From a virus, in IMG/VR virus record IMGVR_UViG_3300050821_016501, positions 1 through 33,368 of that record: 33,368 bases of DNA. One strand, given 5' to 3'. This document shows, one piece after another, positions 9,435-28,158 of this stretch. The stretch's first letter is position 1, and each line of letters begins with the position of its first letter. Made by a program: the position numbers and the translations under genes. The notes beneath the pieces are model-generated. The model did no database searches. It worked only from the letters and a program-made list of their open reading frames with translations, and was not told where the DNA came from.

Positions 9435-9452
9435 ATACGCCTTTTTACGCCC
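9435..9452 (+). promoter_or_regulatory. Tandem TTRCGCCT-type repeat (site A)
   Basis: ATACGCCT (9435-9442) and TTACGCCC (9445-9452) are direct repeats spaced exactly 10 bp apart. They lie in the 59-bp gap between the divergent NUMOD3 and beta-helix genes. This is one of four such sites in the window and a probable regulator-binding element. Confidence 0.5.
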
Positions 9453-9492
9453 CAGGCTTGCTATCGGGAAGGATTTTCTGGAACCTGTTTCT

Positions 9493-11244
9493 ATGTATAT
9501 GAAAATCAGTCTCTTTTTACTGCTCCTGGCGACATCGGCCTGGAGCGCAACCAAATACGTAACGCCAAATGGGAGCGGAAACGGAGCAAGCTGGAGTACG
9601 GCCGGCGGGCCTTCCCTGGTCAGTAACGCGGCAGCGGGAGACATCGTCTACCTGGCAGGAGGTTCCTACGGTCCAGGCCTGAGCGTCCCGGCCAGCGGAT
9701 CGGCCTCCGCACCGATCATCGTCAAGCGCGCTACCGCGGCCGATCACGGCTCAGACACCGGTTGGAGTGCCAGCATGGACGCACAAGCCGTTTTCAACTC
9801 CGGTTGGAGCATTACCGGCAAATTTGTGACAGTTGACGGCAACTGCTGGAAACCGCCGGGATTGCCCACCAAGTTCGGGATCAAGATCAGCCACGCATCG
9901 GGCGCCAAGGGGATAGATGCCGGCGGATCGCCCGGGAACCTGACGGTACGGAACGTTGACGTCAACGGTCCCGGGATCAACTCGAGCAAAGCGGAGGCAG
10001 ACGGGATCCACTTTCCGTCGAATTCGACGATTTCTGGGGCGAGCGTTCATGATACAGACGCTCTTCTCTTTGCCTGGAAAGGGAACACGGGAAGTACAAT
10101 CGAGTACTCCTATTTATATAACGCGTCGAGCAATATCGTCTATTCCGGCAATCCCCAGGATCCGCACCCAGACGTGATCTACAGCGGCGGAATGCTCTAC
10201 CAGGGAACGATGCGGTGGTGCGTGGTGGCCAACGTGACTTCTGAGGGAGTGTTCTTCGATCAGGAACAGCCTGGCGACAACATGCTCTTCTACGGCAACA
10301 TCATGTGGCAAGGGGATTGCCAGACCGGGAACACCCCGATCCAGCTCCAGAACGGAGCGAGTTTCGGCAAGGTTTTTCTCTACGGGAACACCTTCTGCGA
10401 CTTCAACAAATCGAATTGCATCGGCCCGGGAACGAGCACGGCCAATGGATCCGCGGTGGTGAACAACTTGTTCATCAATTATCTCCCGAATTGGGATAAA
10501 GGCGTTAACAACAACGGGTTCAGTTCCACCGGGATCGGAACCAACCAGATCATCAATTCCGCTTCACCGTTCGTTACTTCTGGCGATAAGACCTGGGTAA
10601 AAGGTTCCGGCAACCCGCCGGCTACCCGGGTGACCACGGGAGCACCAACCGGCTACTCACCAATCGGCTATGAAACCGCATTCAAACTCGCATCCAACTC
10701 CTGGGCAATCGGGAAAGCTGTCGCTGTACCCGCTGGCTACAATACTGATCTTAACGGCGTTTCTGGGAACAATCTCGGAGCTTTCCAGTCCGGTGGATCC
10801 GCTCCCTCGCCCACTCCATCTCCAAATCCCACCCCAACTCCCACCGCTACACCCGCACCTACCCCCCCTGCCGCCAAGTTCGCGCCTGGCGACACGGTAA
10901 CGCCCACCGCGATCGTTAACGTCCGCAACGCGCCTGGCGGATCGGTGATCGGCCAGCATAACCCAGGCGACCTCGGAACAGTCCAGAGCGGGCCAGAGAT
11001 GGCGCCGTTACCACAGGCAACCAATGTCGCCTGGTACGCAATCTCCTGGAGCTCGGCGCCGGCTGAAGGTTTTACCGGCGATGACGACCTGGCGAAAACC
11101 ACCGCACCACAACCAACGCCAACGCCGGCGCCTACCGCAACGCCAACGCCTAAACCGGTCTCCTGGACGGAATGGACGATCAAGCTGAACGCCGCGCAAA
11201 GCGATTGGATTCAAAAACATCCCCCATACCCTGACGGAGAGTAA
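9493..11244 (+). CDS. Secreted parallel beta-helix protein with SH3-like domain
   Basis: The start is ATG 9493 or ATG 9499, giving 583 or 581 residues. An N-terminal signal peptide is clear (MKISLFLLLLATSAWSA, probable cleavage after Ala). Residues about 25-430 follow the right-handed beta-helix pattern of pectate-lyase-like and tailspike proteins: an opening 'YVTPNGSGNGASW', then repeated N/G-rich short strands such as 'LTVRNVDVNG', 'NMLFYGNIMWQGD' and 'KVFLYGNTFCDF'. A Pro/Thr linker (about 437-460) leads to a bacterial SH3-like domain (about 461-535, 'GDTVTPTAIVNVRNAPGG'). A second PT linker and a short charged tail end the protein. It would be exported and may act on or bind host surface glycans. 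The two-linker layout is typical of bacterial secreted proteins, suggesting acquisition from a host. Confidence 0.75.
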   Translation: MYMKISLFLLLLATSAWSATKYVTPNGSGNGASWSTAGGPSLVSNAAAGDIVYLAGGSYGPGLSVPASGSASAPIIVKRATAADHGSDTGWSASMDAQAVFNSGWSITGKFVTVDGNCWKPPGLPTKFGIKISHASGAKGIDAGGSPGNLTVRNVDVNGPGINSSKAEADGIHFPSNSTISGASVHDTDALLFAWKGNTGSTIEYSYLYNASSNIVYSGNPQDPHPDVIYSGGMLYQGTMRWCVVANVTSEGVFFDQEQPGDNMLFYGNIMWQGDCQTGNTPIQLQNGASFGKVFLYGNTFCDFNKSNCIGPGTSTANGSAVVNNLFINYLPNWDKGVNNNGFSSTGIGTNQIINSASPFVTSGDKTWVKGSGNPPATRVTTGAPTGYSPIGYETAFKLASNSWAIGKAVAVPAGYNTDLNGVSGNNLGAFQSGGSAPSPTPSPNPTPTPTATPAPTPPAAKFAPGDTVTPTAIVNVRNAPGGSVIGQHNPGDLGTVQSGPEMAPLPQATNVAWYAISWSSAPAEGFTGDDDLAKTTAPQPTPTPAPTATPTPKPVSWTEWTIKLNAAQSDWIQKHPPYPDGE

Positions 11245-11247
11245 GCC

Positions 11248-11275
11248 CTGCGCCTGTTTGCGCTTTATTACGCCT
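11248..11275 (+). promoter_or_regulatory. Triple tandem TTRCGCCT-type repeat (site B)
   Basis: CTGCGCCT, TTGCGCTT and TTACGCCT begin at 11248, 11258 and 11268, an exact 10-bp period. They fill the gap between the beta-helix stop and the next rightward gene at 11301. This is the clearest copy of the motif. Confidence 0.55.
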
Positions 11276-11300
11276 TGCTCATGCCGTATTGATCCAGGGT

Positions 11301-11501
11301 ATGCCAAACAAGCTGCCATTCGAAAACCGCCCGGGTTGGGCAATCCTTTACCCGCCGAAAAACAAACAGGATTGGCAAGGCGATTACCTCGGCGTGACCG
11401 CGATCAATGCCGAGAAATATTGGATTACCGCCTGGGAGAAAACGACCGAGCAAGGCGATCGCTACCTCCTGATCAATCTCAAACCGAAAGAAGGTAAATA
11501 A
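11301..11501 (+). CDS. Conserved-type small phage protein, 66 aa
   Basis: ATG 11301 has CAGGG directly upstream. The 66-residue product has the pattern 'GWAILYPPKNKQDWQGDYLG ... YWITAWEKTTEQGDRYLLINLKPKEG'. This resembles a widespread small phage protein type with 'G.L..N..K....PDY.G....dG..Y.l.aW.K....G.kylsl...PK'. It is beta-rich with an OB-like feel and could bind ssDNA, which is an inference. It is the first gene of a rightward run of small genes. Confidence 0.6.
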   Translation: MPNKLPFENRPGWAILYPPKNKQDWQGDYLGVTAINAEKYWITAWEKTTEQGDRYLLINLKPKEGK

Positions 11502-11504
11502 CCT

Positions 11505-11867
11505 ATGCCAAACAACATCCAAACCGATGAGCAATGGCGGGAAACCGTCCTGGAGCTGATCACCAACCCAGAAGCCGCCGGATTCGCGCGAGAGGTCCTG
11601 GGATTCCAAACCGTCACCGAATTACGCAAACTGGTGCGCCACTTCCGCTCGATGCGCCAGAAGCCGGAAGTCACCGGATTAACGGTTGCCGGCCTGAACA
11701 AGGCGGCTTGCATCGACTGGTTACTGGGAACGCCGGGAGTCGAGTTCAAGAGCCATCAATACGTTCCCGAGAAGAAACCTGCCTTGGGCGATCAAATCAA
11801 AGCTGCCTACGGCAGCGAAAAGCAGGAGATCAACTGGGATTCCCTCTTCCAGGGAATGTTGCGATGA
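11505..11867 (+). CDS. Hypothetical helical protein, 120 aa
   Basis: ATG 11505 lies three bases after the previous stop, with AAGG upstream. The sequence is helical throughout (ELITNPEAAGFAREVLGF, ELRKLVRHFRSMRQKPEVTG), with a segment 'AGLNKAACIDWLLGTPGVEF' that looks like a small DNA- or protein-binding helix pair. No family is recognised. The stop overlaps the next start (ATGA). Confidence 0.6.
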   Translation: MPNNIQTDEQWRETVLELITNPEAAGFAREVLGFQTVTELRKLVRHFRSMRQKPEVTGLTVAGLNKAACIDWLLGTPGVEFKSHQYVPEKKPALGDQIKAAYGSEKQEINWDSLFQGMLR

Positions 11868-11947
11868 AAAATAAAGATCATCTCCTGATCGCCAGCGCAA
11901 TCGGCGCCTTCTTGGCCGGCGTTCTCCTCTACTTCATCGGCTTATGA
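11864..11947 (+). CDS. Membrane microprotein, 27 aa
   Basis: MKNKDHLLIASAIGAFLAGV followed by LLYFIGL is one hydrophobic span with a short positively charged N-terminus. Both start and stop are ATGA-coupled with neighbours, which supports it as a real gene despite its size. The role is unknown. Confidence 0.55.
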   Translation: MKNKDHLLIASAIGAFLAGVLLYFIGL

Positions 11948-12144
11948 GAACCAGAAACCCTCAGACCATCGACGAATATCGCCGGCGAGCGCACAATCAC
12001 CAAAACAAAGTGCGCGATTTCCATCGCCTCCTGGCGATGACCGAGACAGCAGAGCGCTTCAGTCAACTAAGCGGGCAAGACCTCTACATCACTCAGCTCT
12101 ACAGCGAATTGCTGGGAAAAATACGAAACCACACGGTGTCATGA
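11944..12144 (+). CDS. Hypothetical basic helical protein, 66 aa
   Basis: ATG 11944 overlaps the previous stop. The product is rich in Arg, His and Gln (TIDEYRRRAHNHQNKVRDFH) and then amphipathic (FSQLSGQDLYITQLYSELLG), predicted as two helices. No domain is recognised. It is coupled to the next gene by ATGA at 12141. Confidence 0.55.
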   Translation: MRTRNPQTIDEYRRRAHNHQNKVRDFHRLLAMTETAERFSQLSGQDLYITQLYSELLGKIRNHTVS

Positions 12145-12293
12145 AACCCTTCTTCTGGTTCGCAATCAGAATCGGCAACTGGAAGTTCGAAAGCGGCAAG
12201 TTCTTCCATTACCGGAAGATCACCGCGCGCAGCGGCAACCTCTCATGGGAACAATGGGATCGAATCTACTTGTTCGGTCCTCCCCCTGATTAA
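12141..12293 (+). CDS. Hypothetical small protein, 50 aa
   Basis: ATG 12141 to TAA 12293 encodes an aromatic-rich peptide (MKPFFWFAIRIGNWKFESGK, later WEQWDRIYLFGPPPD). It is ATGA-coupled to the preceding gene and is the last gene before the terminator at 12316. The function is unknown. Confidence 0.5.
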   Translation: MKPFFWFAIRIGNWKFESGKFFHYRKITARSGNLSWEQWDRIYLFGPPPD

Positions 12294-12315
12294 AGAAAAC
12301 CTACTTGAACTAAAT

Positions 12316-12360
12316 AAGCCGTTTAGTGCGAAATACCGCGCTAAACGGCTTCTTCTTTAT
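12316..12360 (+). terminator. Rho-independent terminator
   Basis: AAGCCGTTTAG and CTAAACGGCTT form an 11-base perfect stem, extended inward by GCG/CGC, and are followed by CTTCTTTAT. It ends the rightward run 11301-12293, 23 bases after the last stop. Confidence 0.75.
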
Positions 12361-12517
12361 GAACGAAATTCCCCCAGGCTCAATCCTCCAATTCTACGGA
12401 GATACTCCCCCACCAGGTTGGCAATGGTGGTCCTCCGCACCAACTGCCAACGAATTCGGTGTCCCTTACCCTAAACCAATCTGGATTATCAAAACAGCAT
12501 ATTACAGGTTACCTTGA
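12359..12517 (+). CDS. Mini tail-collar-like peptide, 52 aa
   Basis: ATG 12359 to TGA 12517 encodes MNEIPPGSILQFYGDTPPPG with WQWW after it, ending in 'PKPIWIIKTAYYRLP'. 'P-G-S-I-x-x-F-x-G-x-x-P-P-G-W' is the hallmark start of phage tail-collar/fibre-tip domains (Phage_Collar), and 'P-x-x-W-I-I-K-T' is the usual end of such fibres. Only these two ends are present and the body is missing. The start codon abuts a terminator and has no ribosome-binding site. It may be a deletion remnant or a tiny fibre-tip peptide. Confidence 0.45.
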   Translation: MNEIPPGSILQFYGDTPPPGWQWWSSAPTANEFGVPYPKPIWIIKTAYYRLP

Positions 12518-12763
12518 ATAGCAGCTATAGGGGTTTCATCACGGAAAGTGGTTGGCATGAAAATATTTTTTGTCGATATCAGACCGGTCCTGGCCTTACC
12601 CACTCCCCCGATTCATACCCCCCTCCCCCCTTCTTTTGCTTCGCGCGCGTGCGCGCGGTGTTACACTATATACAATAGTGTAACATCTTGAACTGTTGTA
12701 ACTCGTTCATAATCAACACTTGAAACAAATTGGCTTAAATTACCATAATTCGCGTTATGGTTT
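12518..12763. promoter_or_regulatory. Non-coding, structure-rich control region (candidate origin)
   Basis: No convincing gene is seen. Four elements follow each other. 12599-12630 has four C-tracts on the plus strand, giving G-quadruplex potential on the minus strand. 12642-12657 is a 16-base alternating CG/TG run with Z-DNA potential. 12659-12685 is an 11-base-arm palindrome. After that comes an AT-rich stretch to about 12840. This mix, placed between oppositely oriented gene groups, fits an origin or a transcription switch, but no iterons are evident. Confidence 0.4.
12659..12685. repeat. Perfect 11-bp inverted repeat
   Basis: TGTTACACTAT-ATACA-ATAGTGTAACA is a perfect palindrome with a five-base centre. 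A half-site-like TTGTAAC lies 10 bases further on. The size fits a dimeric repressor operator or a replication initiator site. There is no T-run, so a terminator is unlikely. Confidence 0.6.
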
Positions 12764-12901
12764 TTAGAAGTTTAACCTTTGATCTTTGTAATCACGCTGC
12801 AACAATTGCTCACCTTGATTGCGTAATATTGAGCTTGTTGTTTTAAGCTTGACTTCTTCTCGTGAACTAGACTCTTTGGAACTCGTTCTTGAGTTGCTCA
12901 T
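12764..12901 (-). CDS. Possible small Ser-rich protein, 45 aa (doubtful)
   Basis: ATG 12901, with AGGTG eight bases upstream, opens 45 codons ending at TAA 12764 (MSNSRTSSKESSSREEVKLK ...). It lies in the AT-rich part of the control region and has low-complexity composition. A chance open frame cannot be excluded. It would be the last gene of the leftward VWA group. Confidence 0.25.
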   Translation of the reverse strand: MSNSRTSSKESSSREEVKLKTTSSILRNQGEQLLQRDYKDQRLNF

Positions 12902-12970
12902 TCGAGCACCTGATTCACGTAGCAATTACACACAGCACTCTCAATTTGCCCGAATGCAAGGCATTGCTTT

Positions 12971-13486
12971 TCATTGCGTGCTTGGAATTGGCTCTGGATC
13001 TGCCGATGGCAGCGCATCGAACATCGCTTTCAGATCCTCCGGTTTGGGTGCGGAAATGTGTTCTTGCCGGCTTGTCACGCCACCAGTAAGTAGTGCGTGT
13101 TTTTCGAGCAGGATAGCAAGGTTCTGCGCCACCTTGTCGATTCCGAGAGTTGCGCCTTCGTCGACCAGGCGATGCGAAAACAGGAGCGACGCTTCTTCGA
13201 GGTTGTGAATGATTTGTTGCCGGCCGGCGTGCAGCAGTTCCGGGAACATCCGGCGAACTTGCAACACGGCATCGTATTGGACCGGGAATTTCGAATGAAC
13301 AACTGCTGGCGGCAAACCGGTCAATAACGCCTGGTAAACTTGCGCGAATAGCGCCGGCTCAGTTTTGAAAAGATGCCGAGCATATCCAAATGCGGCCTGA
13401 TTGGGGAATTCGTGCAGGGGCCGATCGAAAACCTGGCCGAGCTTAACCGCGAACTCGACCAGTTTAGCTTTCTCATCCTCGTTCAT
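12971..13486 (-). CDS. TerS-like or DNA-binding helical protein
   Basis: ATG 13486 gives 171 residues. ATG 13543 would add 19 residues but overlap the upstream gene by 32 bases. The N-terminus looks like a helix-turn-helix region (AFGYARHLFKTEPALFAQVY, PPAVVHSKFPVQYDAVLQVR). It is followed by a helical section ending 'NLAILLEKHALLTGGVTSRQ'. That resembles the 'alai..dK..ll.Gepts' ending of many phage small-terminase-like and HTH proteins. It may recognise DNA for packaging or act as a regulator. It lies far from TerL, which argues against a simple TerS call. Confidence 0.55.
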   Translation of the reverse strand: MNEDEKAKLVEFAVKLGQVFDRPLHEFPNQAAFGYARHLFKTEPALFAQVYQALLTGLPPAVVHSKFPVQYDAVLQVRRMFPELLHAGRQQIIHNLEEASLLFSHRLVDEGATLGIDKVAQNLAILLEKHALLTGGVTSRQEHISAPKPEDLKAMFDALPSADPEPIPSTQ

Positions 13487-13511
13487 TGGGACGGGATTAA
13501 GCCGCAATAGT

Positions 13512-13769
13512 TCAGGTGGTGCCTTTGCCCTCTTCCTTCTCATCGTTGTACGCACGGTAGCGAAGCGTACTGGGATCGATCGCATCGGGCAACACCTGAC
13601 CGAATTTATGCAACAACGCGTAGAGCCGGTTAGTGATTTCGTGGAGCTCCACACAATCAGCCATCATCTGGTTCCGCACCCTTGGATCATTGAGCTCCGC
13701 GGATTTCCGGTTCAAACGCTCGGCATAAGCGACTGTTCGCTCGAGGTAGGAAGCGATCTGTTTAGTCAT
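13512..13769 (-). CDS. Hypothetical helical protein, 85 aa
   Basis: ATG 13769 lies two bases after the previous stop. The protein is almost fully helical (QIASYLERTVAYAERLNRKS, then DCVELHEITNRLYALLHKFG) with a charged tail (DEKEEGKGTT). A coiled-coil dimer is likely. No family is recognised. It is co-transcribed with the VWA gene. Confidence 0.6.
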   Translation of the reverse strand: MTKQIASYLERTVAYAERLNRKSAELNDPRVRNQMMADCVELHEITNRLYALLHKFGQVLPDAIDPSTLRYRAYNDEKEEGKGTT

Positions 13770-13771
13770 CT

Positions 13772-14053
13772 TCAGTTATTCTCGATTGGGACTGCCTGGA
13801 CGACTCCGTTGGACATTGCCCACAAGGCGTCGGCAAATCCGCACTTCCATGCCATTTCGGCGAATTCATCCAGGAACTTCTGAAAGTTTTCGGCTCTCAC
13901 CAGTGGGTCAGTTTTCACCTCATCCCTCAATTTCTCGACCTGTTCGACCATGTGTGAGAGGAGCGATTCGGTCAGCGAGGTTGCACGGACTTCCTGGATT
14001 GTTTTCCAATACCGTTCTACGGCCTGATCAGCGGTGATCGATTGTGTAGGCAT
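13772..14053 (-). CDS. Hypothetical helical protein, 93 aa
   Basis: ATG 14053 lies two bases after the VWA stop. Several amphipathic helices are seen (ADQAVERYWKTIQEVRATSL, MVEQVEKLRDEVKTDPLVRA). The segment 'FAEMAWKCGFADALWAMSNG' is conserved-looking, with one Cys. The function is unknown. It could partner the VWA protein. Confidence 0.6.
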   Translation of the reverse strand: MPTQSITADQAVERYWKTIQEVRATSLTESLLSHMVEQVEKLRDEVKTDPLVRAENFQKFLDEFAEMAWKCGFADALWAMSNGVVQAVPIENN

Positions 14054-14055
14054 GA

Positions 14056-14724
14056 TCAATTTTTCTCCTTCAGTAAGAACCGAGCGAAATTCCGATCGCC
14101 GAGATAAAACGCACCTACCGCGGCCTTCACACGCTCCAGGAGCGAGCTCAAGGATGCTGGATCCTCAAAGGAGGCAATATGGGTCGAGGGAATCCCGAGG
14201 CGCAACCCGTAACCGGTATCGGCACTAGTCAGGTAGAGGAATTGCCAGGAACAACTGATTCGCCGGTAAGCGACCGTTTGCCGGATATCCTCCAGGTTAA
14301 ACCGGTGCGAGGCGTTCTCCATGCCGTCGGTCAGCAGTGCAATGATCACCCGCGGCTTGTTCATTTTCGAAGGCGGATCATAAACTTTGGCGACCTCCTC
14401 AATAACCGCACCCATTCCATCCAGGAGCGCGGTTCCGCCCAGGAACGGGTAATCTGCCTCGGTCATCGGTAAAAGTGCCTCAGCGGGGCTATTACGAACG
14501 GCAACCGACACCCTGGTGCCAAACATCACCCTGGTGACATTGGATTGAGGATTGCCGGCCACTAATTGGTTGGACCCTTGAACAACCGCACCCACCAACC
14601 CTTCCATTGAAGCGGAGGCATCGAGACAGAGCCCGAGCTGATTAGGTGGACGGTTCATGAAGGCCAAAGCATCGGCTCTTTTAGCCAATGCGGTCTCCGT
14701 ATCTGTTTGTATGTACTTAGGCAT
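14056..14724 (-). CDS. VWA (von Willebrand factor A) domain protein
   Basis: The chosen start is ATG 14724 (MPKYIQTD...), giving 222 residues. Upstream ATGs at 14772 and 14781 fall inside the operator-like repeats. The metal-ion-dependent adhesion site is complete: Asp35-x-Ser-x-Ser39 (DASASM), Thr98 (FLGGTALLDG) and Asp133 (ALLTDGMEN). The rest alternates strands and helices as in a Rossmann-like VWA fold. Phage VWA proteins are often cytoplasmic and of unknown role. VWA proteins elsewhere partner MoxR AAA ATPases, but no such ATPase is nearby. It heads a group of four leftward genes and has its own control region. Confidence 0.85.
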   Translation of the reverse strand: MPKYIQTDTETALAKRADALAFMNRPPNQLGLCLDASASMEGLVGAVVQGSNQLVAGNPQSNVTRVMFGTRVSVAVRNSPAEALLPMTEADYPFLGGTALLDGMGAVIEEVAKVYDPPSKMNKPRVIIALLTDGMENASHRFNLEDIRQTVAYRRISCSWQFLYLTSADTGYGLRLGIPSTHIASFEDPASLSSLLERVKAAVGAFYLGDRNFARFLLKEKN

Positions 14725-14760
14725 AAATCGTATTGCAGTGCAGGATAAGGTAAGACGGTT

Positions 14761-14804
14761 TCTAATTACCATAGAGTGCATCTAATTTCCATAGAGTCTC
14801 TATG
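14761..14804. promoter_or_regulatory. Tandem operator-like repeats upstream of the VWA gene
   Basis: TCTAATTACCATAGAGT (14761-14777) and TCTAATTTCCATAGAGT (14781-14797) are direct repeats, 16 of 17 bases identical, with a 20-bp period. The second copy continues into the palindrome CATAGAG-T-CTCTATG (14790-14804). Two sites one double helical turn apart suggest cooperative binding of a repressor or activator in front of the gene starting at 14724. Confidence 0.6.
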
Positions 14805-14903
14805 CATAAGTCGTTGAAAATCAGTAAAAATCGGATAGGCTTTAAACGCTCCAGGATGCCCCAGGACGCGCATTGCAGTCGGACCTTGGTCATATGATTA
14901 CTT

Positions 14904-14921
14904 TTGCGCCTAATTACGCCT
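14904..14921 (+). promoter_or_regulatory. Tandem TTRCGCCT repeat (site C)
   Basis: TTGCGCCT (14904-14911) and TTACGCCT (14914-14921) are spaced 10 bp apart. A 19-base stretch here matches site B at 17 of 19 positions. It lies in the 274-bp gap upstream of the VWA gene. Confidence 0.5.
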
Positions 14922-15002
14922 CAAAGCGTCCTGCGAAATCTCCCACATTTTAAAAGTCGTGTTATGATTAATAGAAATTATAAGGGCGAAGGGCGAGGTC
15001 AT
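14910..15002 (-). CDS. Possible 30-aa peptide (doubtful)
   Basis: ATG 15002 overlaps the stop of the 20-aa microprotein (ATGA) and runs 30 codons to TAG 14910. The start is MTSPFALIISINHNTTFKMW and the end is ...SQDALRRN. The coupling supports it. The overlap with regulatory site C and the lack of any motif argue against it. Confidence 0.25.
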   Translation of the reverse strand: MTSPFALIISINHNTTFKMWEISQDALRRN

Positions 15003-15061
15003 TTGGTTTGCCACACGTAAACCACGAAGATCACCACGATCGCCAGAATGAGGTAGTTCAT
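14999..15061 (-). CDS. Membrane microprotein, 20 aa
   Basis: MNYLILAIVVIFVVYVWQTK is a single short hydrophobic helix with a charged end. Its start overlaps the stop of the 51-aa gene (ATGA), the pattern used throughout this genome, so translation is plausible. Confidence 0.45.
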   Translation of the reverse strand: MNYLILAIVVIFVVYVWQTK

Positions 15062-15213
15062 TTGTGGTGCCTCGGTCCCGGCAAGAGCATAAAGGTTGGC
15101 GTGAAGGCCGGCGACATCGCAACGAACCCGAGCGATCGGCGTATCTTCATCGCCCGATTCTCGCGAACCTTGCGCCTGGTCTTCGGTAAGAAGCTTTTAG
15201 TTTTGGTGCTCAT
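15058..15213 (-). CDS. Hypothetical basic protein, 51 aa
   Basis: ATG 15213 overlaps the stop of the nuclease gene (ATGA). The first 26 residues are very basic (MSTKTKSFLPKTRRKVRENR, then AMKIRR). The rest is hydrophobic/Pro-rich (SLGFVAMSPAFTPTFMLLPG). It may bind nucleic acid or the membrane. The function is unknown. Confidence 0.55.
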   Translation of the reverse strand: MSTKTKSFLPKTRRKVRENRAMKIRRSLGFVAMSPAFTPTFMLLPGPRHHK

Positions 15214-15794
15214 TGAAACCTTTCTGAGCGTGCGGCCTCATAAGCACGAAGCAACCTAGGTGAATCAGGATTGATTCCGTGATGACGAAATTGCCCAGGT
15301 GAAACCTCCCATTTGTTGCCCTCGCAACACTTGAATTGCTCTGTTCGCCCATTAAACGCGATTCCTAATTGGCCGCAACAAGGACACTCACACCACCAAT
15401 GAGCGTTATCCTGCCAGTGACCATCAAATCCACCAGTGGGATCAGGACAAACCAGCAATGCGCTTTCGCAGTAATCTTCTGCTGGATTGCTTCTTGGAAT
15501 ATCTCCGTAAAAGAGAAATCCACATTTAGCTCTCAATCCTTCTGTTGCTATTCGAAGTTTCTGAATCTGAATTCCTTCCTCTTCTTCGGAGGGATACCCT
15601 GGCTTAATCTCAATCACGAACTGAAAGGCAGGGAGCCAGAAATCTGGCAGATACCAACCCAAATCGAGGCAATCGAAACCTTCTGGTTCGTAACGCCAAT
15701 CGATTCCCAAGCAATCGTAGAAAACCGCCCACCGTGCTTCGAGCCGGCTACGGAAAAGACACCCAGCGTATCGAGTTTCAATAGGTTGAACCAT
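15210..15794 (-). CDS. PD-(D/E)XK nuclease-like protein with C-terminal zinc ribbon
   Basis: This 194-residue protein starts at ATG 15794. The N-terminal 70 residues follow a common phage/restriction-like pattern: 'RYAGCLFRSRLEARWAVFYD' (Glu19), then 'WYLPDFWLP' (Asp51), then 'VIEIKPG' (Glu62-x-Lys64). Together these are the E...D...ExK site of PD-(D/E)XK nucleases. The C-terminal half has clustered cysteines (WWCECPCCGQ at about 133 and a CC pair about 20 residues later), a likely zinc ribbon. It probably cleaves or resolves DNA in replication/recombination. The next gene couples by ATGA. Confidence 0.75.
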   Translation of the reverse strand: MVQPIETRYAGCLFRSRLEARWAVFYDCLGIDWRYEPEGFDCLDLGWYLPDFWLPAFQFVIEIKPGYPSEEEEGIQIQKLRIATEGLRAKCGFLFYGDIPRSNPAEDYCESALLVCPDPTGGFDGHWQDNAHWWCECPCCGQLGIAFNGRTEQFKCCEGNKWEVSPGQFRHHGINPDSPRLLRAYEAARSERFQ

Positions 15795-15795
15795 A

Positions 15796-16149: not shown

Positions 16150-16272
16150 TTGGGGTTTTTTAGTTTGTGCATTTTGGGGATAAAAGTTTTCGCCAGGAAA
16201 ATCGCGCGTGAAGGACGGGAGGAATTCATGCGCACAACAGGTTGCCCCGAAGGTGGTGGTGCGGGAGCGTAA

Positions 16273-16319: not shown

Positions 16320-16364
16320 CGAAGCACCCCTGGTGGGCGCCATGAATTCTGCCCGTCCAGGCTT

Positions 16365-21030: not shown

Positions 21031-21392
21031 TATTTTTTGGTTGGGCACTGGCATTCGCCAATGCGGTATAGGCTGTTATCGCGATTAAAACAGAGAGTGC
21101 AGATCAGCACCTGGGCCGCGGAAGCGTGACAACATTCCCGGGCCATTGGGTAAGTTTCGCGGATCTTGTTGCAGTTGGTGCAACGCCAGTAAGCTTTGCC
21201 GTGCCCGTCGGGCACCAGACCGCCGATCCGTTTGGTCATCTGGTAACGAACTGAGGCGTAACTACTGGCATTCTCGCTCGCCTGGTTAGCGATCGAGTTC
21301 TTGGGTTTCGGGAGCACGGGATCCGCCGGATCGGTTGGCTCAAGAACCAGATTCGGCGGTTCCACCTTTCGGAGCGTGGACTTCCGTTTCAT
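21030..21392 (-). CDS. Zinc-ribbon-containing small protein
   Basis: ATG 21392 overlaps the upstream stop (ATGA). The 120-residue product has a disordered Pro-rich N-terminus. Its C-terminal half carries several Cys pairs (WRCTNCNK, RECCHASA, ICTLCF, ECQCP), probably one or two zinc sites. It precedes the Sak4-like ATPase with translational coupling and may help recruit the recombination proteins to DNA. The specific role is unknown. Confidence 0.6.
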   Translation of the reverse strand: MKRKSTLRKVEPPNLVLEPTDPADPVLPKPKNSIANQASENASSYASVRYQMTKRIGGLVPDGHGKAYWRCTNCNKIRETYPMARECCHASAAQVLICTLCFNRDNSLYRIGECQCPTKK

Positions 21393-21583: not shown

Positions 21584-21586
21584 ATT

Positions 21587-22021
21587 TTAGAGATAGAGCT
21601 TGTAGGTTTGGGTGATGATGTCGCTTGCCTCCTGCAAGGCAACGCCAGGTGCGGTTTCGAGGATGACGTGGACCTCGTTGGCGTTTTTAAGAAGAAAATT
21701 GATGTAGTCGGTCTGCTCTTTGCGGAGCGGATTCGGTGGGATCTTGAACTCGATGTAAACGCCGATTCGGCCGCGGGTAACCAGGAAATCCGGATGCCCC
21801 GTGGCGATCGAGCTCTTCTTGGTGGGATCCGAATGGACGTAGGGGAGCTCGTGCCGGCGAAGGAAGGAGATGAATTGGTCATGGATCTTTCGCTCGCTTT
21901 TCACGTAGTTGGCATGAGCGATTTCCTTCTGGGTGCGGCCGGCTTTTCCGAGGCGTTGGCGATCCTTCGGATCCATGATTTTCAGATATTTTTCAGGGAC
22001 GACAGAATGAAAGTTGGGCAT
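21587..22021 (-). CDS. VRR-NUC domain nuclease
   Basis: The chosen start is ATG 22021 (144 residues), and a TTG at 22075 is an alternative. The C-terminal half has the VRR-NUC/PD-(D/E)XK site: 'GHPDFLVTRGRIGVYIEFK' with Asp78, Glu91-x-Lys93, then 'KEQTDYINFL' (Gln103). Stand-alone phage VRR-NUC proteins are associated with Holliday-junction or branched-DNA cleavage. It is the first gene of the leftward replication and recombination run, so its upstream region (22022-22136) should hold the early leftward promoter. Confidence 0.8.
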   Translation of the reverse strand: MPNFHSVVPEKYLKIMDPKDRQRLGKAGRTQKEIAHANYVKSERKIHDQFISFLRRHELPYVHSDPTKKSSIATGHPDFLVTRGRIGVYIEFKIPPNPLRKEQTDYINFLLKNANEVHVILETAPGVALQEASDIITQTYKLYL

Positions 22022-22136
22022 TGGGTGCGGATGGTTTGTGGACAACGATTTTAACGGGCGCCATGTAAATGCCAAGGTCTAAAGAAGATTTTTTATCGAC
22101 TTCGAGGCGCAATGCGGCATACTTTGAGGCTCTAAT

Positions 22137-22361
22137 ATGTCAACACCTAAACGCAAATCCCGCGGCAAGACCAAGGCGCCGTACCGCACCAACCTGGGCT
22201 CCCTGAAGCTGGAGGCGCCCCTGGACGAGGAGTTTAAAGAAGCCCTGCTAACCTACGGGTTCGAGAGCGTTCCGGCCTTTATCAGGCAGTGCGCCTTCAC
22301 TTTGCTGCGCCAGAAAGATGCCAAGCTGATCCTGCCGCTGGAATTCAAGGTAGCGAATTGA
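22137..22361 (+). CDS. Small RHH-like DNA-binding protein, candidate early regulator
   Basis: ATG 22137 has GAGG about nine bases upstream, one of few real Shine-Dalgarno sequences here. The 74-residue product begins with a basic tail (MSTPKRKSRGKTKAPYRT), then has a short strand (SLKLEAPLDE) and two helices (EFKEALLTYGFESVPAFIRQ, CAFTLLRQKD). This is close to a ribbon-helix-helix repressor. It is transcribed alone, divergently from the replication operon, and ends at a strong terminator. These are features of a phage regulatory gene. Confidence 0.65.
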   Translation: MSTPKRKSRGKTKAPYRTNLGSLKLEAPLDEEFKEALLTYGFESVPAFIRQCAFTLLRQKDAKLILPLEFKVAN

Positions 22362-22371
22362 GGGAAAATAA

Positions 22372-22403
22372 AAAACCCCATCCCGGTGAGGGGATGGGGT
22401 TTT
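22372..22403. terminator. Strong bidirectional Rho-independent terminator
   Basis: AAAACCCCATCCC-GGTGAG-GGGATGGGGTTTT has 13-base arms including a GC core of nine, with T4 on either strand. It separates the convergent genes ending at 22361 (rightward) and 22429 (leftward). Confidence 0.9.
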
Positions 22404-22428
22404 GTTGCAGTTTAGGATTCTGTGGAAT

Positions 22429-22638
22429 TTAGGTTGTCAGGTGAGCTCCCGGTTGCTGGAGAAGCGCAGCGATGTTGTTCTCGGCTTTTTCGATTGCCTG
22501 GGTGCAGCGCACCCGGGCTTCGCAGCTGATGGTGTGGCCATAGGTCTGGCGTTCCGTATCGATCAGCGCGATGCGCGCCGTCTCCTCGGCGATGATGCGG
22601 ATGTTCTTGGCGATTGCCTTGGCGAACTTGGCTTGCAT
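22429..22638 (-). CDS. Hypothetical helical protein, 69 aa
   Basis: ATG 22638 overlaps the upstream stop (TAATG), which fixes the start. Helical pattern (QAKFAKAIAKNIRIIAEETA, VRCTQAIEKAENNIAALLQQ). It has two cysteines with no zinc spacing. The function is unknown. It is the last gene of the leftward virion side before the terminator. Confidence 0.6.
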   Translation of the reverse strand: MQAKFAKAIAKNIRIIAEETARIALIDTERQTYGHTISCEARVRCTQAIEKAENNIAALLQQPGAHLTT

Positions 22639-22844
22639 TATTTGGCCTCCGGGTACTCGATGCGCGGATATTTGGACTTCCAGAATTCCACATCGGTGGG
22701 TGAGTTGACGGAGTAAGCGATCATCTGATCGACGTGCTCGGTATCCTTTTTCAGGTAGGCCAAGGCTTCGTCCACTGGCATCCAGGCCGGCGATCCGTTG
22801 CAACCTGGGATGTAGCGACAGAATTTAACTCGTTTTTTAGGCAT
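22638..22844 (-). CDS. Hypothetical small protein, 68 aa
   Basis: ATG 22844 (MPKKRVKFCRYIPGCNGSPA ...). It has a basic start, a Pro/Asp turn region and an acidic helix (DEALAYLKKDTEHVDQMIAY). No family is recognised. It lies six bases downstream of the preceding gene and overlaps the next. Confidence 0.6.
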   Translation of the reverse strand: MPKKRVKFCRYIPGCNGSPAWMPVDEALAYLKKDTEHVDQMIAYSVNSPTDVEFWKSKYPRIEYPEAK

Positions 22845-22850
22845 AATAGT

Positions 22851-23057
22851 TTAGGTGCTGAGTCGGATTCCTGATTTCTCGTTGAGCTCGATCGCTTTTT
22901 CCTTGGCTTCTGCCATCACCCGATCCAGATCGATGCTGAGAGTGCCGCCTTGCGGCAACCACTCCTGGATCTTCTGGCACTCCTCGAAAGAGAGGACAAT
23001 TTTCGGAACGTGACGGGTGATCCCGTCGATAGTTTTCAGTCCGGTAGAAGCTCTCAT
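22851..23057 (-). CDS. Hypothetical small protein, 68 aa
   Basis: ATG 23057 directly abuts the previous stop (TAAATG). The sequence shows a beta-turn start (MRASTGLKTIDGITRHVPKI), a helix (SFEECQKIQEWLPQ) and a second acidic helix (DLDRVMAEAKEKAIELNEKS). No motif is recognised. Confidence 0.6.
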   Translation of the reverse strand: MRASTGLKTIDGITRHVPKIVLSFEECQKIQEWLPQGGTLSIDLDRVMAEAKEKAIELNEKSGIRLST

Positions 23058-23252
23058 TTAGGCTTTCTGGAAGGCTTCAATAATCTTACCGTCCGATTTG
23101 CGGATCATGGCGACGCTTTTCACGGCTTCTTTGCCGTCTTTCCACTCGACAAACTGCGAACCTGAGAAAAAGCGGAAGGCTCTTCGGGCGGTTTGTGCAG
23201 CGTCTTCTGAGAGTATTTTTCCGTTTATTACTGTCTGATATGTTTGATGCAT
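23058..23252 (-). CDS. Hypothetical small protein, 64 aa
   Basis: The likely start is ATG 23252 (MHQTYQTVINGKILSEDAAQ ...), and ATG 23273 would add seven residues. It is a mixed alpha/beta sequence with 'SDGKIIEAFQKA' at the end. No family is recognised. It starts a run of four small leftward genes, divergent from the 40-aa membrane protein. Confidence 0.55.
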   Translation of the reverse strand: MHQTYQTVINGKILSEDAAQTARRAFRFFSGSQFVEWKDGKEAVKSVAMIRKSDGKIIEAFQKA

Positions 23253-23339
23253 AAGACGCAACCTATACACCATCTTTGCAGCACAATAAAGCGTTTTCTC
23301 CTTTATTTTTTTCAAGAGGGTGCTTAGATTTTGCGTTCT

Positions 23340-23462
23340 ATGTTTCGCCTTACTCAACAAGAACGGACGCTTCTCATCTGGATTCTGGCTATCCTTGCCT
23401 TAACCTTAACGGCCGCAATCGCTTGCGGTCACTGGCATTACTGGGTGCGGTGGGATTTCTAG
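23340..23462 (+). CDS. Membrane microprotein, 40 aa
   Basis: ATG 23340 to TAG 23462 encodes MFRLTQQERTLLIWILAILA plus a further hydrophobic stretch and an aromatic C-terminus (CGHWHYWVRWDF). The N-terminal 'L-T-x-Q-E-R-x-L-L' followed by a span recalls small membrane proteins common in Verrucomicrobia. It is the only rightward gene between 22361 and the window end. No Shine-Dalgarno. Confidence 0.45.
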   Translation: MFRLTQQERTLLIWILAILALTLTAAIACGHWHYWVRWDF

Positions 23463-23546
23463 GGAAAAATTGGCGGTTTCGGCGGCACATGCTTCCGTCG
23501 ATGGAACCACCACCAGACTGTGCTGACAAAATTCGGGATCATAATT

Positions 23547-24785
23547 TTAACATCCGGTGTCTGCGGCCCATTCCCCAAGAACGCTGAGACCTCCTGTAGC
23601 TGGTCCAGCGGCAGTTAAACTTATCGAATTCACCTCTGTTTCATTGGAGACGTAACTCTGGACAAATGCAGCGGCGGCTGAAGCATCCAGATAAACTGCA
23701 TTGGTTGCGGCAGTTAAACCACAAGTCTGGATAGAAGGAGTTACTGCCATCCGTTTTGGGAAACGAATACCGACACGCACGGCAGTTGTACCCAAGAGAA
23801 AAATACCCAGAAACGACTGTCCACCTTGCACTGGTTTGACAGCATAAGAAGCAGATTTCGCGTAGTATCTTTGGCACTCGTCTAGGTTTTGGGCGAACGG
23901 TTTGTCGATCAGGGTGGTACAAAGCGGTCCCGGCTCGTGCTGAACGAAAGCGATATCGAAAGTTGCGTTAAGAGTCGCCGCGAAATTGCTCATTCCTGGC
24001 GCACCCATGAAATTACCATTCTGCCAAGTATCATTGGCCGGTGACATATAACTAGATCCGCACGCCAACATGATTCTCAACAAATAACCTACCACCCCTG
24101 GTGCAGAGGTAAAACTCCCGCCACTTGGCCAAGCAGGAAGATTAGGAAACTGGACTAAGGTCCAGACATTGGCGGCTAAAGCAGGACTGAGCTTGGTCAA
24201 CGATTTTGAAGTTGTCCCGGGATCATTTAAAGCTACCCCAAAACGGAGACCGGCAACGGATGGACGAACCAAAAGCTGCAACGAATGAACGTCGTTCATC
24301 AATTCGCGAAAATAAATTCCTTCCACGTATTGTTGAAGAAACAGGTAGTCTCCGGCCCCCATCGAGGCTTGTGCAATATTGACGGAAATGCGCAAGGCAC
24401 TTTGGGAAATTCTATAATTGGTTCCCGGCACCAAGGCATCACCACCTACGCCAGTCCCTAAACCCGCTTGCTGAGTGTTAATCCCCATCGGAGTTCCCGA
24501 TCTGGCAATTTGCCAGCGATCCAGAGAAAATGGAGCACCTACATTAAGTAAAGCCGTACCGACATTGCGCTGATCAACCTCGAATGTCGGATTACCCATC
24601 GCGTTGAAACTCCGAAGGCGCACTGAGGTAATGACCGGCGTCGGATCCGGTACGTAGATCTTGTTGTCACTCCCGAAAGTCGCCTGATTGCCAGCGTCCG
24701 AGCTGATCGCATTAGGGCCAGGAATCCCCTGCTGGCCTCCCGGGCTGATCAGAACACCACTTGCGACATTAGTTCCTGCTGGCAT
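23547..24785 (-). CDS. Tail fibre / receptor-binding protein, short-stalk paralogue
   Basis: ATG 24785, 412 residues, three bases after the previous gene. Residues 1-50 hold a short collagen-like remnant (PGGQQGIPGPN) and a 'SDAGNQATFGSDNKIYVP' linker. Residues 55-412 form a jelly-roll-like receptor domain of a type common in phage fibres: '[16 protein letters not shown]', a 'DRW' strand, 'SNFAATLNATFDIAFVQHEP', then '[16 protein letters not shown]' and the terminal '..GEWAADTGC'. The neighbouring 632-aa fibre contains the same domain. It is likely a second adsorption protein arising by gene duplication. Confidence 0.8.
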   Translation of the reverse strand: MPAGTNVASGVLISPGGQQGIPGPNAISSDAGNQATFGSDNKIYVPDPTPVITSVRLRSFNAMGNPTFEVDQRNVGTALLNVGAPFSLDRWQIARSGTPMGINTQQAGLGTGVGGDALVPGTNYRISQSALRISVNIAQASMGAGDYLFLQQYVEGIYFRELMNDVHSLQLLVRPSVAGLRFGVALNDPGTTSKSLTKLSPALAANVWTLVQFPNLPAWPSGGSFTSAPGVVGYLLRIMLACGSSYMSPANDTWQNGNFMGAPGMSNFAATLNATFDIAFVQHEPGPLCTTLIDKPFAQNLDECQRYYAKSASYAVKPVQGGQSFLGIFLLGTTAVRVGIRFPKRMAVTPSIQTCGLTAATNAVYLDASAAAAFVQSYVSNETEVNSISLTAAGPATGGLSVLGEWAADTGC

Positions 24786-24788
24786 AAG

Positions 24789-26687
24789 TCACCATCCGGT
24801 GTCTGCAACATGCTGCCATTCCATCATATTAAGTGCCGTGGGCACGGTGTTAAGACTAACCCCACCATACCCGTATTCACCAGGATACCATATTCCACTA
24901 ATAGAATGATCGGCTGAAGTGCTATAGTTGCGAATCGTGCCTGTCGCACCGCTCACCGGATTCCAGACCGATAACGTGGGCACTTTTGCCATCCGTCTTT
25001 TAAATGGAATATGCGTAACCGGATGAGTATTAGCTGCGCAATATAAGACCACTCCACCACCGTTGACGGCTTGCCCTAATGCATACTGGTAATCGCAGGT
25101 TTTCTGATAGTACCGCTGACACTCGTCCAGATTCTGACTGAACGGCTGGTCGATCAAGGTCGAGCAGACCGGTCCCGGTTCGTGCTGAATAAACCCGATA
25201 TCGAAGGTAGAATTAACTGGGTTGGCGCAAAAGTTGCTTTGCCCAGTTGCCCCCACGAAATTCCCGTTCTGCCAAGTGTTGTTGGCGGGCGACATATAAG
25301 TCGATCCGCTCATCAAGCAAATTGAAAGATAATATCCTAAATTTCCTGGCAAGGGATTGTAGGTGCCCACCCAAACAGGCAGATTTGGAAAGGTCAACAA
25401 TATCCAAGTATTGGCCGTTGGAATGGTTGCCAGTTTAGTGAGGGTTTTGGCGGCTGCTGAATCGGTTAAAGCAACGCCAAATGTTCCAGCTACACTGCTG
25501 CGAACCAAGATCGAAACCGAATGAACATCGTTGGATAACTCCCTCCAGCATGGACCTTCTACCGATTGGACAACTTGTAAATAATTTCCGGCTGCTGGCG
25601 AAGCGAGTTGTCCGGTTAAGGTAAGACGAAAGAAGGAGCGAGAAATTCTGAAATTCGTGCCGGGAAGACAAAGATCAGGAAGGTTAGCTACCTGCTGACC
25701 CATATTAACCGTATACCCACCTGCCCCACTGTAGGTCCAGCGATCGATAATTACTCCAGAATTAGGATTAGTCAGTGTCTTACCGACATTCCTCTGATCG
25801 ACCTCAAAATTTGGGTTACCCACGCTTGAGAACGACCGAAGACGCACGCTCCAGATCGTCGGTTGAATCGCGGAAGGCGGCAGGTAAAGGAGCGAGTCGC
25901 TCCCCAGCGTCAAGAGGTTCTGGGCGTCGCCGCTCGGTGCCATCGAACCAATCGGCGGGTTGAGTAGCGTGAGACTCGTCGAGGTCTTAGACTGGATCTG
26001 CAAGGCCATTGGCGTATTCGCGTTGCCTCCTGCTGTCGCTACCCAGACGTACTCGCCAACCACTGCCCAGGTGGTGTCGTTGACGTTGACCGAGGCAGTT
26101 GATCCTACCGGCGGCACCGTGAATCCCGAGGTCGTTAACGTCCAGGCGGGCGTTCCTGTCGGTCCTGCTGGTCCTGGCACCGTGGAAGGATTTCCTTGCG
26201 GGCCTTGTGCTCCCGCCGGTCCTTGAACGCCGGCCGGTCCCTGCGCTCCGTCAACCCCTGCCGGGATTTGGAAATTGAGAATTGCCGCTGAAGGAACACC
26301 AGTATCAGTGACAGTTGCCGGCGAGCCGGGAGCTCCCGTAACCGTGGTGCCAACTGTGATGGTTGCAGCTTGACCAGGGTTGCCTGGTGCGCCTGGTGTT
26401 CCGGCCGGTCCCATCGGGCCGATCGGGCCTGGAATAGTTGAATCATTTCCCGGCGGGCCAGGAACACCTTGCGGGCCTTGCGGGCCAACGCCGGCCGGCC
26501 CCATCGGGCCAACTGGACCTGGTTCGCCTTGAATTCCTTGATCGCCTTTCGGTCCCTGGCCGGCGATCGAGATCGCTTCGAGCGTGACATCGGACTGAAT
26601 TATCTCGACATCGAACGCGGATTGGCAGATTGCGACATCCAGGTTGACTGGTGTCAGGTCAACTTCAATCGCGTCACATGTTGCCAT
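24789..26687 (-). CDS. Tail fibre with collagen-like stalk
   Basis: ATG 26687, 632 residues. The N-terminal 40 residues are a beta-rich attachment region. Residues about 43-107 and 144-180 are Gly-X-Y collagen repeats ([20 protein letters not shown]), expected to form a trimeric stalk. Residues about 181-245 match a common fibre beta-domain ([20 protein letters not shown]). The rest is the receptor domain with '[15 protein letters not shown]', '[15 protein letters not shown]', '[16 protein letters not shown]' and the end '..WQHVADTGW'. It binds the host surface. The pattern of shared C-termini with the downstream gene shows the two are paralogues. Confidence 0.85.
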
Positions 26688-26700
26688 CTTTCCTCACTTC

Positions 26701-27156
26701 TCAGGTCACGGCATGCCGTGCGGATGTCGGTTGAATGATCGTAAAAACGCCTTTGACCAGTGGCGTGACCACTCCTCCCGCACTCACCATCCGCACCTGG
26801 TGCGAGTAACCAACGGTCTGCATCCCTCCGGTGATATCGGCCGACACCACCAACCAGGTGTATCCCTCGAGCGAAGTGGCCGTCTCCTGCCAATCAACCA
26901 TCACGGTGGTGGGCGCATCGTCCGCATCATTGGGATCGAGCTTGGCCGTGAACTGGAACCAGGCGCCGGTCAAGTCGACGGGCAGACCGTTGAGCGTGAG
27001 CGTGATTTTAGTTGAAAGCGTGGCGCCTTGTTCGACCTGGAGATTGTAGGTGCGAGCGCACGAACAAGGATCCGTAGAAGGAGTTTGAGTAGTTGGTGCG
27101 TAAGACGCACGAGGAGCGAACTTTGCCAAAACCTGGGCTTGTGTCGCGGCGAGCAT
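26701..27156 (-). CDS. Fibre-adaptor-like protein (BppU N-terminal-type beta domain)
   Basis: ATG 27156, 151 residues, 13 bases before the collagen-like fibre gene. Residues about 38-145 follow the Ig-like pattern seen in BppU/DUF2479-type baseplate and fibre adaptors: 'LQVEQGATLSTKITLTLNGL', 'PVDLTGAWFQFTAKLDP', 'YTWLVVSADITGGMQTVGYS', 'TPLVKGVFTI'. It probably joins the fibres to the tail. The Cys-x-Cys at about 32-34 is of unknown meaning. The family call is by pattern only. Confidence 0.6.
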   Translation of the reverse strand: MLAATQAQVLAKFAPRASYAPTTQTPSTDPCSCARTYNLQVEQGATLSTKITLTLNGLPVDLTGAWFQFTAKLDPNDADDAPTTVMVDWQETATSLEGYTWLVVSADITGGMQTVGYSHQVRMVSAGGVVTPLVKGVFTIIQPTSARHAVT

Positions 27157-27256
27157 GCCGTGCAGCGTAATAGGAAATCTGTTGACCGGCTAGTTCATTC
27201 TTGCGACGGTGCATTGCGGTCCTTTTTAGGCGAGGATCTGTTGTTTGTGCATAAGA

Positions 27257-27299
27257 AAGGCCAAGGAGTGTATGTCCTCCTTGGCCTTGTCTCTTTTTT
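27257..27299. terminator. Rho-independent-type hairpin upstream of the fibre genes
   Basis: AAGGCCAAGGAG and CTCCTTGGCCTT form a 12-base perfect stem with an eight-base loop. On the plus strand GTCTCTTTTTT follows, an excellent T-tract. On the minus strand, along the direction of the flanking genes, only TTTCTTAT follows. It lies between the proline-repeat gene and the fibre module. It may attenuate leftward transcription and block antisense reads. Confidence 0.7.
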
Positions 27300-27312
27300 G
27301 GGAGTGGAAGTT

Positions 27313-27861
27313 TTAGTTTTGCGGCACGCCGGCAACAGGTTTCGGCGCCGGCTCAGTGGGTGGTGGAGTTTCTCCAGTTGGCGGCAACGGAGTGCCAGCG
27401 GTTGGTGGTGGAGGTTTAGTGCCCGCTTCCGGTGGAGGAGTCGGCAATCCTTGATCAGGATGCCCTGGCGGGCGCGGCAACCCTTGATCAGGATGACCAG
27501 GCGACGGAGGCAATCCCTGGTCAGGATGCCCTGGTGGGCGAGGCAACCCTTGATCGGGATGCGGCGGAACCAGAATCGGAGGCCACACTTCCGGCGGCAA
27601 AACGATCGGAGGCGCAATGGTTCCTGGAGGTCTTGGCAAACCTTGATCAGGATGACCAGGAACACCTGGCAACCCTTGGTCAGGTCGGCCGGGAGGTTTC
27701 GGCAGATCGTGACCAGGTCGTGGAGGCGATCCTGGAGGTTGTGGCAGACCTTGGTCAGGTCTCCCTGGAGGTTGCGGCAAACCTTGATCAGGTCTGCCAG
27801 GGGCAGCGGGAGCCCCAGGCTCACCGCTGTAATACCAGATTTCAATATGAACTAATGCCAT
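27313..27861 (-). CDS. Proline-rich tandem-repeat protein (PDQGLP repeats)
   Basis: The chosen start is ATG 27861 (MALVHIEIWYYSGEPGAPAA...). A GTG at 27891 adds ten residues. After about 20 residues the 182-residue protein is built from eight copies of P-D-Q-G-L-P and one variant G-H-D-L-P, each in a frame such as PGHPDQGLPRPPG of 10-12 residues. The tail is rich in Pro and Thr. Such repeats form extended, flexible polyproline-like rods. The DNA repeats are imperfect at the nucleotide level, so the repeat is maintained at the protein level. It lies just upstream of the fibre module and could be a spacer, decoration or host-interaction protein. Proteins with PDQGLP/PDNTLP repeats are recalled from other podophages, with no function known. 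Confidence 0.65.
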   Translation of the reverse strand: MALVHIEIWYYSGEPGAPAAPGRPDQGLPQPPGRPDQGLPQPPGSPPRPGHDLPKPPGRPDQGLPGVPGHPDQGLPRPPGTIAPPIVLPPEVWPPILVPPHPDQGLPRPPGHPDQGLPPSPGHPDQGLPRPPGHPDQGLPTPPPEAGTKPPPPTAGTPLPPTGETPPPTEPAPKPVAGVPQN

Positions 27862-27900
27862 GACGAGAAGCACCTTACGCTCCTCTGGCACGATTTGTCA

Positions 27901-28119
27901 CTAATCGTCTTGCTCGGTGCTCGTCGGATCCGAGACGGGAGGCCCTGAGTAGGGAGCGGGTTTCGGCCCGAGCCCAGCGTTGTGAATGAGAACCTTCTCC
28001 AGGTAATCGTGCGCTTCAGGAGGCAGATCGTCGTAGTGCGACTGTGCGACGTCGAGATCGCCTTCGTGAAAAACGTGCTTCAGATCCAGCTTGTTTCCCT
28101 TTTTTCGTGTTGATGGCAT
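27901..28119 (-). CDS. Hypothetical acidic protein, 72 aa
   Basis: ATG 28119 (MPSTRKKGNKLDLKHVFHEG ...). Basic start, acidic helical middle (DLDVAQSHYDDLPPEAHDYL), Pro-rich acidic tail (SGPPVSDPTSTEQDD). No domain is recognised. Regulatory repeat site D lies just upstream (28131-28158). Confidence 0.6.
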   Translation of the reverse strand: MPSTRKKGNKLDLKHVFHEGDLDVAQSHYDDLPPEAHDYLEKVLIHNAGLGPKPAPYSGPPVSDPTSTEQDD

Positions 28120-28130
28120 AAGGGTTTATA

Positions 28131-28158
28131 TTACATCCAATTACGCCTCGGTGCATCT
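28131..28158 (+). promoter_or_regulatory. Tandem TTRCGCCT-type repeat (site D)
   Basis: TTACATCC (28131), TTACGCCT (28141) and a weaker GTGCATCT (28151) keep an exact 10-bp period. The site fills the gap between the 51-aa membrane protein gene and the gene starting at 28119. Confidence 0.45.

Follow-up and report, generated by a model that had tools for sequence, protein, structure and literature searches.

The virus contig IMGVR_UViG_3300050821_016501 raises the question of what a short tandem repeat, TTRCGCCT, does in several of the gaps between its genes. This IMG/VR record of 33,368 bases is the whole virus contig of an uncultured phage, and all of it was analysed here (the window). An earlier note, made from the sequence alone, had picked out copies of the octamer with a 10-bp period and suggested that they define a phage regulon. 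We confirmed that paired 10-bp repeats are present at five sites, far above chance, and that they are restricted to gaps. The five sites are probably operators of one cooperative, sequence-specific DNA-binding protein, most likely the product of the gene at 22137-22361, that would jointly control five gene groups. Regulons of uncultured phages are rarely known.

Paired repeats in five intergenic gaps

Because the motif had been picked after it was seen, a motif-blind test was used. Every 8-mer was taken as two copies at spacing d with no more than 3 mismatches over the 16 positions, and the places found in gaps were counted. Spacings of 8-30 bp were covered, with a second run on automatic gene calls for those of 8-24 bp. 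ATTACGCC came out best at d = 10, with 5 places in intergenic DNA; the best 8-mer at any other spacing from 8 to 30 bp had at most 3. The earlier note had asked whether shuffled sequence gives as many 10-bp-phased pairs. It does not, as none of 6,973 dinucleotide shuffles of the gaps reached 5 places at spacing 10 and 11 reached 4. The doubled pattern, with up to 3 mismatches, gave 8 matches compared to 0.80 ± 0.93 in shuffles. A scan of the whole window on both strands, at no more than 3 mismatches in 16, found exactly five places, all of them intergenic. Gaps make up 8.4% of the window, and the chance that five of five places would fall in them is about 4 in a million.

The TTRCGCCT repeats listed previously at 9435, 11248, 14904 and 28131 are all present. 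At the 28131 site one unit is degenerate, and we are not convinced by the third unit suggested at 28151. The copy at 22105 on the minus strand, described as single, has a degenerate partner, GTATGCCGCATTGCGCCT, 10 bp away, which brings the paired sites to five. The statement that TTACGCCT always has a partner held for the plus strand but not for the minus strand, where an unpaired exact copy lies inside a gene (21254-21261). Further unpaired copies of TTGCGCCT are found at 13150, 14198, 15170 and 27610. The sites are as follows, with their units read on the GGCG strand.

S1, 9435..9452, minus strand: GGGCGTAAAAAGGCGTAT read on the minus strand; two 10-bp units, GGGCGTAAAA and AGGCGTAT; in a 59-bp divergent gap between 8801-9433 (minus) and 9493-11244 (plus), its last base 1 nt from the minus-strand ATG at 9433.
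S2, 11248..11275, minus strand: AGGCGTAATAAAGCGCAAACAGGCGCAG read on the minus strand; three units, AGGCGTAATA, AAGCGCAAAC and AGGCGCAG; in a 56-bp gap upstream of the plus-strand group 11301-12293, and the sole site that points away from its gene.
S3, 14904..14921, minus strand: AGGCGTAATTAGGCGCAA, a perfect site with 0 mismatches; units AGGCGTAATT and AGGCGCAA; in a 275-bp gap upstream of the minus-strand VWA group. A possible 43-aa open reading frame, 14762-14893 (minus), begins 27 nt from its first repeat base.
S4, 28131..28148, minus strand: AGGCGTAATTGGATGTAA; one good and one degenerate unit (AGGCGTAATT, GGATGTAA); in a 37-bp gap upstream of 27901-28119 (minus).
S5, 22105..22122, plus strand: AGGCGCAATGCGGCATAC; two units, AGGCGCAATG and CGGCATAC; in a 115-bp divergent gap between the minus-strand replication group (first gene 21587-22021) and 22137-22361 (plus).

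On the GGCG strand the unit is RGGCGYAAWN. As it is asymmetric, without internal symmetry, its two or three copies per site are arranged head to tail, one helical turn apart. The core GGCG.AA of unit 1 is invariant at five of five sites. All sites lie upstream of genes or gene groups. Divergent gaps contain S1 and S5, the gaps with S2-S4 separate co-directional genes, and no convergent gap has a site. Measured in the GGCG direction, the distance from the first GGCG base to the next ATG is 18 nt at S1, 27 nt at S3, 28 nt at S4 and 31 nt at S5. Orientation is thus less mixed than had been claimed, since only the site at 11248 is opposite and the other four point at an ATG. With four sites 18-31 nt from an ATG and S2 pointing away, the arrangement points to a DNA-level element near or overlapping start regions. 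A sigma-54 promoter was considered at the repeats and rejected by eye, as GG-N10-GC is absent there.

A proposed operator set and its candidate regulator

We propose that a single protein binds the asymmetric unit RGGCGYAAWN head to tail and cooperatively, with adjacent subunits on the same face of the helix. Through S1-S5 this protein would jointly control five gene groups. Control would probably be by repression, because the sites and start codons are no more than tens of bases apart, and one site is reversed. The suggested phage regulon is in keeping with repeats that are far above chance, confined to gaps, spaced by one turn and placed before several gene groups, as expected if they are bound by a protein; conservation could not be shown, as described below. 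Two proteins of the 33 kb have an RHH-like (ribbon-helix-helix-like) sequence pattern, and both had been put forward previously.

22137..22361, plus strand: candidate regulator, 74 aa, RHH-like by sequence pattern; S5 lies in its own upstream gap.
7183..7392, plus strand: second candidate DNA-binding protein, with GGARRGAGRP and an RHH-like pattern; no adjoining site.

The position of S5 makes 22137 the better candidate. It is a single plus-strand gene followed by a terminator-like hairpin at 22372-22403, and this layout, with the hairpin behind and S5 in front, fits a self-regulating repressor. For this reason we tentatively favour this protein of the phage itself as the regulator, although confidence in its identity is below that in the operator set as a whole. 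Through S5 it would also control its own gene and the divergent replication genes. In the 22137 protein a likely strand segment is followed by two predicted helices. A homologue with 38% identity in the relative G046 (L212:186-410) shows the same pattern; the RHH fold is our reading of the sequence and makes 22137 a candidate member of that class.

Homologues of 7183 were found in G046 (L290), G047 (L293) and an unrelated contig (L048). The plus-strand group 6638-7392 is headed by an imperfect palindrome, GATTGTGCGTATACTCTAGTATGCACAATC, at 6594-6623 of the window. This palindrome is in a 365-bp divergent gap without 10-bp repeats and looks like an operator for another regulator.

Comparison with related and other phages

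Relatives were collected via the portal and terminase. Those that span the gaps reach at most 63% terminase identity, the nearest available (L210-L217) having 55-63%. The 98% relative L005 is 4.4 kb long and spans none of the five sites. Searches with the primase, Sak4-like and 22137 proteins returned no close relative. A terminase search of genome contigs, carried out as one scan, matched no relative, and the host therefore could not be named.

Conservation of the sites in related phages, which the earlier note had looked to for support, could not be shown, as the motif was not enriched in relatives. The doubled motif gave 2 matches in 1.69 Mb of relatives versus 3 in the reversed control, and 20 versus 35 in 33 whole related records. 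The gaps of relatives had no comparable spacing-10 signal, low-complexity sequence apart. This result does not refute a regulon: operators of this kind can diverge fast, and L005, the only near-identical relative, spans none of the sites.

In the nearest full-size relative, G046 (L212), the 22137 homologue is divergent from genes that lead up to a homologue of the nuclease behind S5; this nuclease match is weak (E 0.006). Tandem 10-bp units of another sequence, GTSSTTAAAK, are present in two gaps of G046: at 988-1008, shortly upstream of an HTH_17 gene, and, as three units, at 40926-40946; an 11-bp array of three copies of TACGYAAACTA occupies L212:885-915 in the gap before the HTH_17 gene. 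As a motif-blind scan of G046 found only 3 places at d = 10, a level that shuffles also reach, these units are a hint, not evidence, that the tandem architecture may be kept while the repeat sequence changes. A wider proposal would have an RHH master regulator of the phage coordinate at least five gene groups (replication, accessory and tail-side) via 10-bp direct-repeat operators, with relatives keeping the architecture and changing the repeat sequence as phage immunity groups do. We consider it rather unlikely that the proposal is correct in this full form.

An exact-pattern scan of viral contigs returned 43 stretches, nearly all single-site and unrelated. We do not count these matches as evidence for a shared regulon; many are ribosome-binding regions preceding an ATG. 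Tandem GGCGYAA-like arrays in L021/L027, L033 and L048 were also set aside, as these are unrelated phages found because the pattern was searched for. Two of these unrelated phages have an iteron-like gap in which GCGCAACA or GGCGCAAA is repeated many times, in either orientation: L048:1230-1530, near terminase genes, and L033:4240-4500, near helicase-like genes. In the relatives L083, L087, L091, L221, L226, L229, L234 and L237, a helicase-like gene is followed by a gap of ~180 bp that is conserved among them (e.g. L237 about 6410-6580). This gap is packed with CCTCCGCAAAA repeats, three of them 11 bp apart and others inverted, and looks like a replication origin or control region.

Weighing the operator model against alternatives

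Several observations weigh against the proposal that one protein, with 22137 as its likeliest identity, uses the five sites as operators. Promoter-like matches were no commoner than in shuffles, so promoters could not be placed, and no clear sigma-70 promoter was paired with the sites. The exact motif is conserved in no available relative at terminase identities of up to 63%, and the orientation of S2 is opposite to its gene. The 22137 protein had no Pfam, PHROG or NCBIfam match, which leaves the RHH fold unconfirmed, and two AlphaFold models with predicted local distance difference test scores (pLDDT) of 58-61 gave no significant Foldseek match. Moreover, another regulator may be absent from the contig, which is probably incomplete because no major capsid gene was recognised in its 33 kb.

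A regulator of another class could account for the repeats in three ways. The second most likely reading is that a winged-helix protein of the MerR/Xis-like kind (HTH_17, comparable to Streptomyces BldC, lambda Xis and phage 186 Apl), encoded in the missing part of the genome, binds the sites head to tail, since G046 and G049 carry an HTH_17 gene directly upstream of the homologue of the nuclease following S5 and G047 also encodes HTH_17. One-turn direct repeats, as found here, are a hallmark of head-to-tail binding by winged-helix proteins (PMC7498355, PMC5859096), and the gap that precedes the HTH_17 gene of G046 has tandem repeats of both 10 and 11 bp. However, no HTH_17 homologue was found in the 33 kb, where the gene is absent from its usual place before the nuclease, and no integrase was recognised among the proteins scanned; we give this explanation a modest chance of being correct. 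Co-option of a host transcription factor, such as a response regulator of the OmpR/PhoB type, is unlikely. The direct repeats of some response regulators have one-turn spacing. Some response regulators are named as an example of direct-repeat binding in PMC5859096, but the location of S5 before a phage DNA-binding gene favours a phage factor. No regulator with a receiver and a winged helix was recognised among the window proteins scanned, and nothing links the sites to the OmpR-like or sigma-associated factors suggested previously. Activation of the lambda CII type, in which a TTRC-N6-TTRC direct repeat flanking a -35 element is bound by a tetramer, is very unlikely. TTGC-N6-TTAC is present in S2 and S3 and is near the CII target TTGCN6TTGC (PMC2629481), but the exact target occurs at none of the five sites, conservation peaks in CGCC, mostly outside the CII target, and no gene lies downstream of S3 or S4 when these are read in the TTRC direction. 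Neither a CII homologue nor lysogeny genes were recognised among the proteins scanned, in a contig that is probably incomplete.

The repeats might instead act in RNA or in replication. Same-strand ATG codons 18-31 nt downstream of the first repeat base at four of five sites, together with many doubled-8-mer matches directly before an ATG in unrelated contigs, some with AAGGAGG, would suit GGCG units that serve as ribosome-binding or translational-control elements. This is distinctly unlikely: at the only three-unit site, S2, the GGCG units are antisense to the gene, ribosome binding does not require a 10-bp phase, and a Shine-Dalgarno-like AAGG or GAGG within 18 nt of the start was found only for 9433 and 22137 among the genes behind the sites. 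Neither an Rfam scan nor a tRNA scan gave a match, and a known RNA element thus has no support from them. It is highly improbable that the repeats are iterons bound by a replication initiator. A group of relatives does have a single CCTCCGCAAAA cluster that looks like an origin, with some copies 11 bp apart, downstream of a helicase-like gene, but the window has no such cluster at one origin: its sites, of 2-3 units each, are spread through five gaps across 19 kb.

Operators of one cooperative DNA-binding protein are thus our preferred explanation of the five sites. A statistically firm operator set, a defined repeat unit of 10 bp and a candidate regulator open to test all come from a single genome, and one purified protein with five short pieces of DNA would suffice to test the control circuit of an uncultured phage.

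Genes adjoining the sites

The window encodes a terminase, a primase/helicase, a Sak4-like annealing protein, a PolB-type exonuclease and collagen-like tail proteins. We also identified a portal-like protein, which adjoins the terminase and is conserved in relatives, with no family match. The genes behind S1-S4 are the following.

8801..9433, minus strand: first gene of a minus-strand group (NUMOD3 / homing-endonuclease-like) reaching down to 7415; directly after S1.
11301..12293, plus strand: small-gene group after S2, with a terminator-like hairpin behind it at 12316-12351.
12971..14724, minus strand: VWA-domain gene group downstream of S3.
27901..28119, minus strand: 72-aa gene with no assigned function, directly downstream of S4; heads the tail/fibre-side minus-strand genes.

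Just upstream of the VWA gene, a direct repeat that differs from TTRCGCCT, CTAATTWCCATAGAGT, has copies at 14762 and 14782, a spacing of exactly 20 bp or two turns. The VWA-domain gene itself (14056-14724) is in a phage contig of only 33 kb; its listed distant homologues in the phage collection are nearly all from much larger phages, of 98-170 kb. Beside the collagen-like tail protein genes, 33-bp coding tandem repeats (family D1) extend over 27430-27834 of the window.

Comparison with known systems

Three kinds of regulator are known to target short asymmetric tandem direct repeats: some RHH proteins, the Xis/Apl/BldC proteins and CII. The arrangement is of a known kind; no record was found of this repeat sequence, this set of sites or this regulator. 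The lambda CII target, TTGC-N6-TTGC, is likewise a 10-bp-phased direct repeat (PMC2629481), but the sites here share the core GGCG/CGCC and include no exact TTGCN6TTGC, and a CII gene was not recognised. One-turn direct repeats of short units, bound head to tail and cooperatively, are likewise the targets of recombination directionality factors such as phage 186 Apl and lambda Xis, and Apl also represses phage promoters (PMC7498355). Their units are 6 bp, in arrays of 5-7 at att and pR-pL; neither a winged-helix protein nor an integrase was found here. Streptomyces BldC is a small regulator that binds head-to-tail direct repeats in varying number at many promoters (PMC5859096), but its units are AATTXXXX(C) and its regulon is a bacterial developmental one.

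Among RHH proteins, ParR recognises two 10-bp direct repeats in pB171 and at least two 11-bp repeats in R1 (PMC9426499). Its repeats form a centromere at one place and it has a ParM partner, whereas the phage sites are dispersed and no ParM was seen. The RHH regulator omega (ParB) of plasmid pSM19035 binds non-palindromic 7-bp direct repeats that overlap the promoters of copS, delta and omega (PMC9499535). Omega differs in its 7-bp units, 7-10 copies per site, mixed orientations and role in a plasmid partition system, compared to 10-bp units in 2-3 copies and no ParA seen in the phage. Its asymmetric direct repeats are nevertheless found at several promoters, including its own, and are cooperatively bound by omega (PMC9499535); in the phage, too, asymmetric units occur at a fixed spacing, and S5 lies upstream of the candidate's own gene.

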